Below, in pieces: positions 1 to 9,961 of a DNA stretch of 64,000 nucleotides; position 1 is the stretch's first letter; each line of letters begins with the position of its first letter. The position numbers and the translations under genes are program-made. The notes under the pieces were generated by a model. It searched no databases. It was not told where the DNA came from and saw only the letters and a list, made by a program, of their open reading frames with translations. The stretch is from an uncultured Porphyromonadaceae bacterium (GTDB lineage: Bacteria; Bacteroidota; Bacteroidia; Bacteroidales; Muribaculaceae): assembly GCA_947175495.1 (NCBI GenBank), contig CAMWNB010000002.1:1-64000 (forward strand), written 5' to 3'.

Positions 1-20
1 TGCGGATTTTTCAGCGCGAC

Positions 21-425
21 ATGGCGCCACGGGGCGGCGGGGCCCACGTGTTGCCGGGCCTCGACAAACACCGGCTGGCCCAAGTGGCGGGGGCGGGCGG
101 GCCAGCAGCCGAGCGCGCGATGAGCTATGGCGAAGAGGTGGAAACTGCACCTGCGGTTGCAGCCCCGGCTCCCGCACCATCACGCCGCACACGCAAGCGT
201 CGTGTCAAGGAGGAGGTGGTGGAGCAGGTCGCGCCCAAGATTACGGATGCCGACCTGATGGATGTAGAAGCCGGTTTTGCCGACCACGACTGGTTCGGGG
301 CTCCCGAACCGGATGAATTGTCGGTTCAGCCGACGGAGCCGGCTAACGATGATTTCGGCTACCACGCACCCGAACCCAAGCCGAGACCTTACGATGACGG
401 CATGCAGATGAGCCTTTTCGATTAG
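21..425 (+). CDS. C-terminal part of an unidentified protein (window truncates 5' end); low-complexity basic/acidic tail ending QMSLFD
   Basis: Open frame continues to the window edge; C-terminal QMSLF resembles a beta-clamp-binding motif; family not recognised. Confidence 0.5.
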   Translation: MAPRGGGAHVLPGLDKHRLAQVAGAGGPAAERAMSYGEEVETAPAVAAPAPAPSRRTRKRRVKEEVVEQVAPKITDADLMDVEAGFADHDWFGAPEPDELSVQPTEPANDDFGYHAPEPKPRPYDDGMQMSLFD

Positions 426-643
426 ACCCCGTTCCCCAATATTTGTTAACGCCGGAGAGATGCGATGATAAAGTAACTTTTGTATCATCGCACAATTAAT
501 TGCGCTCTGAATCAGTTATAAGGTTTTAACCGCTTCGTATAGTTCTGCCTAAACCCTAATTCATCACGACAACATATATTCTCTGTTCTCCGTGGCATAA
601 ATTACCATCGCCCCGGCGTTAACAAATATTGGGGAACGGGGTC
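425..643. mobile_element. MITE-like non-coding element, 219 bp, perfect 31-bp terminal inverted repeats, TTA on both sides
   Basis: 425-455 gaccccgttccccaatatttgttaacgccgg is the exact reverse complement of 613-643; flanked by tta at 422-424 and 644-646. Confidence 0.7.
461..492. other. Perfect 10-bp stem hairpin inside the MITE-like element
   Basis: tgcgatgata (461-470) / tatcatcgca (483-492), 12-nt loop. Confidence 0.7.
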
Positions 644-654
644 TTAGCGGCGGT

Positions 655-1737
655 CTATATCGTTTTCAGCATGGCAATTTTTCCCCACTGGTCCTCGTAG
701 GTGAGGCCGCGGGACGCATAGCTTGAAAGTTTGAAGCCGGTTTTAGGACTGACAGAGAGATTACCCGGCCTGACGATTGCGGATGCCATGTCGACGGTGT
801 CGAGAATGTCGGATATCCGTTCGGACAGGGGGCTGTGGGCATCTGTGAGGCCAAGCACAACTTTCTTTCCATCCGGGATGTGGCGCAGTATTTCAATCTG
901 GTAGTCGTTGCCTATGTTGAAGGGCATGAAAAATTTGCCGACATTTACTCGTGAAAGGACTTTCGGCATTATGTTGTCGGGATATTCCAGAAACTCCCAT
1001 TCCGGCACAATGGTGTCGCCTCCCGAGAGGTACAGCGAGAGTTCCATGTCGGACGGAAGGCCGGATATAGAGTTGTTGAAGAGACTTATCAGCCGGTCGT
1101 GAAGGCTGATTAAATCCACGCCTCCCTGCAGCAGCCGTTTGGTGTAATTGTCGTCGCACAGGAGGCCGCATGAGGTGTCGTCGATTTGAATGTGCCGGCA
1201 GCCGATTTTGTAAAAATGGCGGATGGTTTTGTTGTAGGCCTCGGCAATGTCGTCGATGAGCTGATGCGGGACCGGATAGGTCTGTTCCAGTCGCCCGTCG
1301 TTCAAAGCGAGTATCTCAAGATAGAGATTTGCGGGCGAGGGGAGTGTCTGGCGGCAGCTGATGCTTTCATCGGCCGTATTGCGCAAGAATGTAAAATCTT
1401 CGAAGAACGGGTGGGTCGGATTGTAGGCGATGCGTCCTGTAAATTGCATGAGGTCGGTGAAAGGGTCGACAGGTTGATAGAGGTGGCCGCTTTCTACCCT
1501 TTCGCGCTGTATGCCTTCAAGGCCGAACCAGAAGTCCTTATCCCAGTAGGTACGCCGAAATTCGCCGGATGTCACTTCGCTGAGTCCTGCTTCAATCTGC
1601 CTGGCTACGAGTAGCGTGATTGCTTCGTCCTCTGTTTTGCGGAGTTGTTGAATGTCGATTGCGCCTGCCAAGTATTGATTGCGCGCTTCTACCAGGCTTT
1701 CGGGCAGAAGGAAGCTGCCCACGATGTCGTGTTTCAT
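655..1737 (-). CDS. Cobalamin-independent methionine synthase-like protein (MetE C-terminal domain / YxjG-YxjH type)
   Basis: MKHDIVGSFLLPESL..., SEVTSGEFRR, HIQIDDTSCG, VVLGLTDAHSP; cobalamin riboswitch upstream. Confidence 0.85.
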   Translation of the reverse strand: MKHDIVGSFLLPESLVEARNQYLAGAIDIQQLRKTEDEAITLLVARQIEAGLSEVTSGEFRRTYWDKDFWFGLEGIQRERVESGHLYQPVDPFTDLMQFTGRIAYNPTHPFFEDFTFLRNTADESISCRQTLPSPANLYLEILALNDGRLEQTYPVPHQLIDDIAEAYNKTIRHFYKIGCRHIQIDDTSCGLLCDDNYTKRLLQGGVDLISLHDRLISLFNNSISGLPSDMELSLYLSGGDTIVPEWEFLEYPDNIMPKVLSRVNVGKFFMPFNIGNDYQIEILRHIPDGKKVVLGLTDAHSPLSERISDILDTVDMASAIVRPGNLSVSPKTGFKLSSYASRGLTYEDQWGKIAMLKTI

Positions 1738-1907
1738 AATAATGATGCGTTTTTCCACCGGATGTAGTCCATATAATGTGATACACGAGGAAAGTTGTTG
1801 AGGTGGAGAAGACAGAGTGGGGTGCTACATGTTTGCGCTTGCTCCTTGTGCGGAAGGTGCAGACGCTGCGCCAGAGAGTCGGATATGGCTGAATTCGATA
1901 TGTCCAT
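1734..1907 (-). CDS. Possible 57-aa leader ORF between riboswitch and MetE-like gene, ATGA overlap
   Basis: MDISNSAISDSLAQRLHLPHKEQAQTCSTPLCLLHLNNFPRVSHYMDYIRWKNASLL; its TGA overlaps the downstream ATG. Confidence 0.4.
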   Translation of the reverse strand: MDISNSAISDSLAQRLHLPHKEQAQTCSTPLCLLHLNNFPRVSHYMDYIRWKNASLL

Positions 1908-7562: not shown

Positions 7563-7600
7563 ACGCCACCGGGAGAAGCTTCGGCTTCGCCCGGTGGCGT
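7563..7600 (+). terminator. Hairpin terminator after fabD
   Basis: acgccaccggg-a-gaagc-ttcg-gcttc-g-cccggtggcgt, TTCG tetraloop, then tgtctt. Confidence 0.75.
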
Positions 7601-7607
7601 TGTCTTA

Positions 7608-7642
7608 GACCCCGTTCCCCAATATTTGTTAACGCCGGGGTC
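7608..7642 (+). repeat. 35-bp minimal copy of the MITE-like terminal repeat, flanked by TTA
   Basis: gaccccgttccccaatatttgttaacgccggggtc; first 31 nt identical to 425-455; tta at 7605-7607 and 7643-7645. Confidence 0.85.
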
Positions 7643-9961
7643 TTATAATTCAAGGCGCGATTTTTCGGAATTGCCGGCTCCGGTTCCACGGTAGCGGTCG
7701 CGAGAGGTGTTGAAGCGGTATTGCATGGTAAGCATGAACGAGCGGCCGGGAAAGTAGTCTTTCTGAACGATTCGCACAGCATCATTGTACATCATGGCGT
7801 CTCTCTGAGAGGAGTTGAACAGGTCCTTGGCCTCAAACGTAATGCTGAACGCATTGTTGAAAAAACCTTTGTAGACTTTTGCGTCGACATGCCATGGCGT
7901 ATTCGTCAGCTTCATGTTGTTGTCCCAATGATGTGTCATAAACTGAGCATCCACATTCATCCAGATGTCAAATGGCAGATGAATGGCGTTCTGCCATTGA
8001 AGCAGAAAACCCGGAGTGGTCATTCTCATCGGACTGCCGTCGACGGGGAGAGTGAGCCACTGCTTCATTAGGCCGGCATTCAGGCGCGGCTGCCATGCGC
8101 CCACCTTGAATTGGCCACCAGCAAATGCCTGGAAATAGTGGCGGTGGTCGAGGTTGGCGGTTCTGATAATAGTTGCTTCTCCATCGGCTCCGTACGGTTC
8201 GGTGGTGTGGTACACGCCATCCTTGAAATATGTGTACGACAACTGTACGAAGAACTGCCGCCATTGCGCCATGTATTCCACCGTCTGCATTTTCGTGGGT
8301 TTCAGATATGGATTTCCGGTTTCGTAAGTGAGGCGGTTGATATAGCTGACGGCTCCGTCAAGCTGTCCGTAGCCGGGACGCACGGTTTTGCCGGAATAGT
8401 TCAGTCCCATGCGGATTGGGCCGACCGGTGCGGCCACATTCAGCGACGGGAAGATATTGTTGTAGGTTTTGCTTTGGCTGCCGCGCAGTAGTCCGGATTC
8501 GTAATAGTCGAATTTCACATGTTCGTAGCGCAGTCCGGCTACGATGCTGAAAGGGCCGAACTGTTGTGCTATCTCCGCAAACGCGGCGATGTTGGTTTCG
8601 TTCACTCTGTTGTCGGCGTCAGGTACTTCAGGGATGTTGGCTGTGAAAATGTCGGTGGTGCGCGTGTCGGTGTATTCCTCGCCCATCTCTATCTGCCCGT
8701 GCCCCAAAGGATGACATATGATCAGTTTCTCGGCGAACATGCGGTTGTGGTTGACAGAGAGTGTGCTGACTGTGCGGTCTTCGCCCATTTCGCAGAGCTC
8801 GTGGCTGAAGGCGCGCTCCTTGTTTTTATACCATATATAGTCGGCGTTGAAATCAATAGAGAACTTCCCGACTGAACCGTAATAATACAGATTGGCGTAA
8901 TGCCGGGGCTGAGCCGTCGATTCATTGTTGACATCGGAATTGTAGCGGTCAATTAAAATGCCATCCTGCCACACTTCGCTTGGAATCGTCCCGACGAGAG
9001 AGTGTAGGTTCCGGCTGTTTTGATAATAGGCTCCGATGCTGTGCCTGTCGTCAATCATGTATGAGAATCCGATTTTTCCTGTCATGTCGTTGTAGGACTG
9101 CTTGCCTGACGTGCGGAACGTCTGGTCGTATGTGCCGGAAGATGTTGTGGTTGTCATGTCGTTCGTGCGGTCGATGCGGTTGTTGCCATGCCACCATCCG
9201 TAGTTGGCGAACAGTTCGAGACCACGGGTGCGGTACTTCAAGTCGACCGAGTTGCCTGTGCGGAAATAGTGGAGGAAGCCGTTGTCGGAGCGGAGGGTGC
9301 CACTGATGCCGTCGCCTTTGGGCGGTTTTGTGCGAATCAAAATTACGGACTTTACATCTGCAGCGTAAGCCGCCCCGGGATTCGTTATTACCGATACGTT
9401 TTTAATGTCCTGTGAATTGAGTTGCGCGAGTTCTTGAAGATCGTTGACTTTTCGTCCGTTGATGCGGATTTCGGGTGTTCCTTTGCCGAAGACTTCAAGC
9501 GAGCCTCCGTTGTCGACGACCATCGGCACTCGCATGAGCACATCGTTGGCTGTCCCGGCGATGGCGAGCGGGCTATTCTCAACGTTGGTGACAAGCGCGT
9601 TGCCTTTCAGAGTAGTGGTCGGACGCGTGGCGCGGACTACCACCTCGCCGAGTTCCACAGAGGACGGGGTGAGTCTTATCGTGCCCATGTTGCCCGACGG
9701 CGGCACTGAAAGCTCGGAACTTTCGTAGCCGACAAAGGAAACTTTTGCGATAAGGCTGGCCGATGTGTCAGTGGAAATGGAGAACGCGCCGGCTTGGTCG
9801 GTCACTGTGCCCGTGATATAGGTTGAGTCGTGATACAGCACTACATTGACGTAGTCGAGCGGGGTGTCGTTTTCTCCGACTACTTTTCCGGAAATCTCTC
9901 TGCCATGGATTGCAGTCGCGGCCATAAATGCCATTAGAAATGTAAGGATTGTTGTTTTCAT
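7643..9961 (-). CDS. Outer-membrane beta-barrel / TonB-dependent receptor-like protein with N-terminal carboxypeptidase-regulatory-like domain
   Basis: GREISGKVVGENDTPLDYVNVVLYHDS, plug-like region, C-terminal barrel ending FMLTMQYRFNTSRD. Confidence 0.85.
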   Translation of the reverse strand: MKTTILTFLMAFMAATAIHGREISGKVVGENDTPLDYVNVVLYHDSTYITGTVTDQAGAFSISTDTSASLIAKVSFVGYESSELSVPPSGNMGTIRLTPSSVELGEVVVRATRPTTTLKGNALVTNVENSPLAIAGTANDVLMRVPMVVDNGGSLEVFGKGTPEIRINGRKVNDLQELAQLNSQDIKNVSVITNPGAAYAADVKSVILIRTKPPKGDGISGTLRSDNGFLHYFRTGNSVDLKYRTRGLELFANYGWWHGNNRIDRTNDMTTTTSSGTYDQTFRTSGKQSYNDMTGKIGFSYMIDDRHSIGAYYQNSRNLHSLVGTIPSEVWQDGILIDRYNSDVNNESTAQPRHYANLYYYGSVGKFSIDFNADYIWYKNKERAFSHELCEMGEDRTVSTLSVNHNRMFAEKLIICHPLGHGQIEMGEEYTDTRTTDIFTANIPEVPDADNRVNETNIAAFAEIAQQFGPFSIVAGLRYEHVKFDYYESGLLRGSQSKTYNNIFPSLNVAAPVGPIRMGLNYSGKTVRPGYGQLDGAVSYINRLTYETGNPYLKPTKMQTVEYMAQWRQFFVQLSYTYFKDGVYHTTEPYGADGEATIIRTANLDHRHYFQAFAGGQFKVGAWQPRLNAGLMKQWLTLPVDGSPMRMTTPGFLLQWQNAIHLPFDIWMNVDAQFMTHHWDNNMKLTNTPWHVDAKVYKGFFNNAFSITFEAKDLFNSSQRDAMMYNDAVRIVQKDYFPGRSFMLTMQYRFNTSRDRYRGTGAGNSEKSRLEL

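Follow-up and report, generated by a model that had tools for sequence, protein, structure and literature searches.

A 219-bp inverted-repeat element between convergent Muribaculaceae genes, very probably a MITE derived from an IS5-family insertion sequence

The window analyzed here, a 64-kb stretch of DNA from an uncultured Muribaculaceae bacterium, begins with two convergent genes separated by a 219-bp non-coding element (425-643) bounded by perfect 31-bp terminal inverted repeats (TIRs; Table 1). The chance expectation for such repeats in the window is 0.00, even when three mismatches are allowed, as estimated from dinucleotide shuffles. On the minus strand at 1932-2139, upstream of the right-hand gene, lies a cobalamin riboswitch (RF00174, E = 2.7e-24). 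An earlier note on this DNA had described the two arms as exact reverse complements with TTA outside both, enclosing a hairpin; we confirmed the arms and their borders, and the hairpin is real, its arms at 461-470 and 483-492 pairing perfectly over 10 bp. The accompanying claim that the interior is non-coding stands save for 12 nucleotides retained from a transposase gene (531-542), with no other identifiable coding sequence; a 102-aa antisense ORF runs through the element and the left gene alike. The 64-kb window yielded no transposase with such ends, again in agreement with the note, whose list was correct for 425-643 and lacked a third exact TIR at 7608-7638 that belongs to a 35-bp relative.

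Table 1. Features of the element, its neighbors and its 35-bp relative in the window.
Feature	Coordinates	Strand	Supporting comparison or context
Upstream gene, 3' part, ending ...MQMSLFD	3..425	+	Orthologues in G008, G039 and G040
Left target-site duplication, TTA	422..424	.	Compare the TNA duplications of 47/69 non-redundant elements
Left 31-bp TIR, GACCCCGTTCCCCAATATTTGTTAACGCCGG	425..455	+	Ends shared with L196 201-1260, an IS bearing a transposase gene
Left deletion junction, CGCCGG	450..455	.	Alignment of the 219-bp and 405-bp forms
Perfect 10-bp stem with 12-nt loop, from the 5' non-coding region of the IS	461..492	+	Corresponding region in L221-L223
12-nt relic from the 3' end of the transposase gene, CGC TTC GTA TAG (R F V stop)	531..542	+	Identical to the C24 transposase end
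Right deletion junction, CGCC	609..612	.	Alignment of the 219-bp and 405-bp forms
Right 31-bp TIR	613..643	-	Exact reverse complement of 425-455
Right target-site duplication, TTA	644..646	.	
Downstream convergent gene, cobalamin-independent methionine synthase-like	655..1758	-	
35-bp minimal relative, left TIR + GGTC (7608-7642), TTA on each side	7605..7645	+	Between fabD-like and TonB-receptor-like genes

Excision of 425-646 in silico yields GATTAGCGGCGGTCTATATCG, in which the left stop codon (TAG) and the right stop codon (CTA, 655-657) lie 7 bp apart. Both reading frames are intact with or without the element, as had been proposed. The TAG of the left gene is composed of the TA of the duplication and the first base of the element, G, and because the base after TTA is also G once the flanks are joined, this stop is identical whether or not the insert is present.

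The earlier suggestion that empty sites be sought in relatives was followed up in congeners. The left-gene orthologues of species G039 and G040 are not followed by the element, the next gene in G039 being the OstA-like one found farther to the right in the window; the right neighbor differs, with no methionine-synthase-like gene at the corresponding place in G039, G040 or G008. An exact empty allele did not emerge: when 49 genomes of the genus were searched with flanks joined across 422-646 and across the 7608 site, none had both neighbors adjacent, the joined flanks of all elements matched only themselves among all loci collected, and no exact empty allele or strain-level polymorphism was seen among genomes sampled at one per species. 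In G008 (contig C12, L254 700-1060), a decayed, independent and differently built family copy starts some 30 bp (approximate) beyond the stop of the left-gene orthologue; the end of this gene has therefore taken at least two insertions within the genus.

The BLASTN comparison proposed in the earlier note revealed a large family. In the window's own genome, a 2.34-Mb draft of 90 contigs (G000), the ends of the element were found at about 35 sites, a count based on 81 BLAST pieces of which many lie at contig ends. Among the 49 sampled congeners, 29 match the long form, and an exact scan of a public genome collection matched at least 104 contigs, all titled Bacteroidales and largely metagenome-assembled genomes of Muribaculaceae. 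Family members range from 35 to 1060 bp with variable interiors, only the ends being constant; the forms in the window's genome include 405 bp (C20), 299 bp and 161 bp (both C44), 219 bp, a 60-bp palindrome (C29) and several 35-mers. A perfect 3-bp target-site duplication (TSD) accompanies 47 of the 69 non-redundant elements and is always TNA (TAA 30, TTA 14, TCA 2, TGA 1), with the other 22 lacking a perfect one. Separate amplification of the 219-bp form as a subfamily of its own was considered and rejected, no second complete copy having been found: C88 has its left junction and stops at a contig edge, and C14 has its right junction.

Two side observations concern individual copies. Near-pure palindromes, in which two TIRs stand back to back, were seen at 60 bp (L045 1321-1380, G000:C29) and about 44 bp (L054 ~1040-1085, G000:C7), one of the two flanked by TAA on both sides; these are extreme deletion products of the family. 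Elsewhere in the genome, a discrete insert about 4.7 kb long (L032 1100-5816; G000:C6 ~72300-77015) splits a copy and has inverted ends of its own, AAAACGAAACGAGCACA. It encodes a repressor-like protein together with a phage head maturation protease, a major head protein and a neck/tail-completion protein (PHROGs), with no further ORF of at least 120 aa seen in it, and nearly the whole insert recurs with the same ends at G007:C50 594-4831 (80-96% identity). The insert may represent a small satellite or mobile element that carries a capsid.

The earlier note had advised seeking a full-length insertion sequence (IS) with such ends; a transposase-bearing IS with the same ends was located in a congener (species G032, L196 201-1260). 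This 1,060-bp IS shares both the ends and the flanking arms of the 219-bp element and carries a 239-aa ORF for an IS5-family transposase (NF033580, E = 2.9e-50; 171 bits, far above the family cut-off of 110 bits) with matches to PF01609 (E = 4.9e-24) and PF13340 (E = 1e-13), although this best copy of the parent appears to be without the first part of the transposase gene. Pieces of the transposase were detected in 18 of the 49 congeners. The window's own genome, a draft that breaks at these repeats, yielded no certainly intact full-length transposase, only an internally deleted copy with the same ends at a contig end (C24) and an N-terminal stub at a contig start (C14). The layout of the parent, about 1.06 kb in all, comprises a 5' non-coding arm of about 190 nt, a DDE transposase gene and a 3' arm of about 200 nt.

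The relationship between the IS and the shorter forms can be traced through alignments. IS copies from three congeners (L221-L223, from G022, G040 and G013) match the 405-bp form over its nucleotides 1-192 before entering the transposase gene, while the end of the C24 transposase gene, CGCTTCGTATAG, is identical to the relic at 531-542, with the same 12 nt present in the 405-bp form; the MITE thus corresponds to the IS minus its transposase gene. Specifically, the comparison shows the 405-bp form to match an IS whose transposase gene has been deleted but for the last three codons and the stop, and the 219-bp element to match the 405-bp form minus two further deletions at the short direct repeats CGCCGG and CGCC. 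Global alignment of the 405-bp and 219-bp forms leaves two clean gaps, one of about 87 bp in the left arm that extends from the CGCCGG of the TIR to the second CGCCGG of the arm (ACCGG in the C20 copy), and one of about 97-99 bp in the right arm from CGCC to CGCC. We infer from these junctions that the deletions arose by slipped-strand or short-repeat recombination.

Collectively, multiple copies, a non-coding interior, TIR boundaries, matched TSDs at unrelated sites, together with the shared ends of a parent IS, support the interpretation of 422-646 as a MITE insertion that the earlier note had advanced. We consider it very probable that the element at 425-643 is a non-autonomous MITE that arose by internal deletion from an IS5-family IS inserting at TNA with a 3-bp duplication. 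An IS5-type transposase acting in trans would have recognized both 31-bp ends, cut out the element and inserted it at the TTA that overlaps the stop codon of the left gene.

The shortest relatives appear to extend this deletion series. The 35-bp form at 7608 reads GACCCC-GTTCCCCAATATTTGTTAACGCC-GGGGTC; its neighbor was labeled fabD-like from reading the translation. Such forms are most likely relics, in which the GGGGTC at nucleotides 30-35 and the right terminus would have recombined or slipped across the hairpin, and 7608-7642 was probably left by a near-precise deletion of this kind. The "nearly precise excision" of Tn10 is an analogue of the short-repeat loss proposed here. It is rather unlikely that the 35-bp forms, 7608-7642 among them, are themselves mobile mini-MITEs: 14 of the 19 detected have a perfect TSD, they are found in several species, and the ends GACCCC/GGGGTC give the 35-mer a short inverted repeat of its own. 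However, the TSD would be kept under either origin, and one full 31-bp end followed by 6 bp of the other is exactly the product expected from recombination at GGGGTC, which favors the deletion relic. Separately, we observed that the copy at 7608 directly follows a strong GC-rich hairpin (GCCACCGGG...CCCGGTGGC, 7568-7607) behind the fabD-like gene, likely an intrinsic terminator, and that another family copy, in C14, sits beside a similar GC-rich hairpin.

The insertions spare ORF interiors and show a 7- to 10-fold enrichment at stop codons. Using a crude ORF caller, and with the TWA sites in the same flanks as background, only 5 of 35 TWA insertions fall within ORF interiors compared to 1104 of 1685 background sites, and among extragenic sites, a stop codon is touched by 12 of 30 insertions compared to 48 of 581 background sites. 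This enrichment at stop codons corresponds to an odds ratio of 7.4 (p = 6e-6), rising to about 10 with stricter ORF thresholds. It must be due in part to the survival of harmless insertions, because the duplication and the outer G of the element rebuild TAA or TAG. Because G is the first base of the element on both strands, stop codons on either side are restored when it enters T[TA]G or C[TAA], and insertion between convergent genes should therefore be nearly neutral. That the family is in addition adapted to land on stop codons, the enrichment reflecting target choice beyond survival, is a doubtful proposition. If true, the TNA target and the terminal G at both ends, by rebuilding TAA or TAG in both directions, would let the element enter overlapping convergent stops without a scar in either protein, and its hairpin would then keep the two transcripts apart.

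A related question is whether 425-643 has been kept as a bidirectional terminator, its hairpin (arms at about 425-462 and 606-643) stopping transcription from both sides. The element does separate two convergent genes that, in its absence, would have their stops 7 bp from each other, its RNA is predicted to fold into a single long stem-loop (-86 kcal/mol), and 21 of 58 classified sites are convergent. Yet a hairpin comes with any TIR element and is no sign of function, no U-tract is found 3' of the stem, G039 and G040 manage without the element after the left gene, and no conservation of this copy was seen. Moreover, the same family occupies tandem (20), divergent (7) and ORF-internal (10) sites, the convergent setting being common and no rule. 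A host function as a terminator is thus possible but unsupported, and retention for this purpose strikes us as very unlikely. Weaker still, to the point of being extremely improbable, is the reading of the repeats as part of a riboswitch or of a conserved family of structured RNAs or terminators, the latter two held up by the earlier note against its own interpretation, a reading to which the strong predicted stem could be credited: it is refuted by the TSDs and the transposase-bearing parent IS, lengths run from tens of bases to a kilobase with constant ends only, and Rfam gave no match over 422-646.

The MITE interpretation has consequences beyond this locus. Copies are numerous in Muribaculaceae and contribute to the fragmentation of their assemblies, with many contigs ending inside them; the family has a named parent and clear deletion steps from the IS to 405 bp, 219 bp and 35 bp; and stop-codon enrichment together with the rebuilding of stops offers a simple explanation for high copy number in compact genomes. 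The present family did not appear in the literature searched and is apparently undescribed, the kind itself (an IS-derived MITE) being well known.

The parent resembles the IS5 family (NF033580, DUF4096 + DDE_Tnp_1) in its size of about 1 kb, DDE transposase and short TSD, but differs in its long 31-bp TIRs and long non-coding arms. A TNA target, as in the perfect duplications of the family, may recall the IS1031 group of IS5. The best plasmid relatives share no more than about 42% identity (Bacteroides fragilis CP103159). Within the Bacteroidales, the MITEs of Porphyromonas gingivalis (MITE239, MITE464/PgRS and BrickBuilt) have TIRs that match IS5-family ISPg elements (PMC4596501), although their TIR sequences differ from ours (GAGACCTTTGCA for BrickBuilt). 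BrickBuilt is exclusively intergenic and contains 23-nt tandem repeats with no transposase remnant (PMC4596501), whereas in the present family 12 nt of the transposase gene survive, as does the complete series of deletions. MITEAba12 of Acinetobacter is presumed to be mobilized in trans by ISAba12, an IS with the same TIRs (PMC6382973); in contrast to the 3-bp TNA duplication and many lengths described here, it has a 9-bp TSD and a uniform length of 111-114 bp. Similarly, RUP of the pneumococcus is a small non-autonomous element whose TIRs are common with those of an IS (PMC2229807), but there the parent is IS630-Spn1 and the targets are TA, while the present family has an IS5-family parent and TNA targets.
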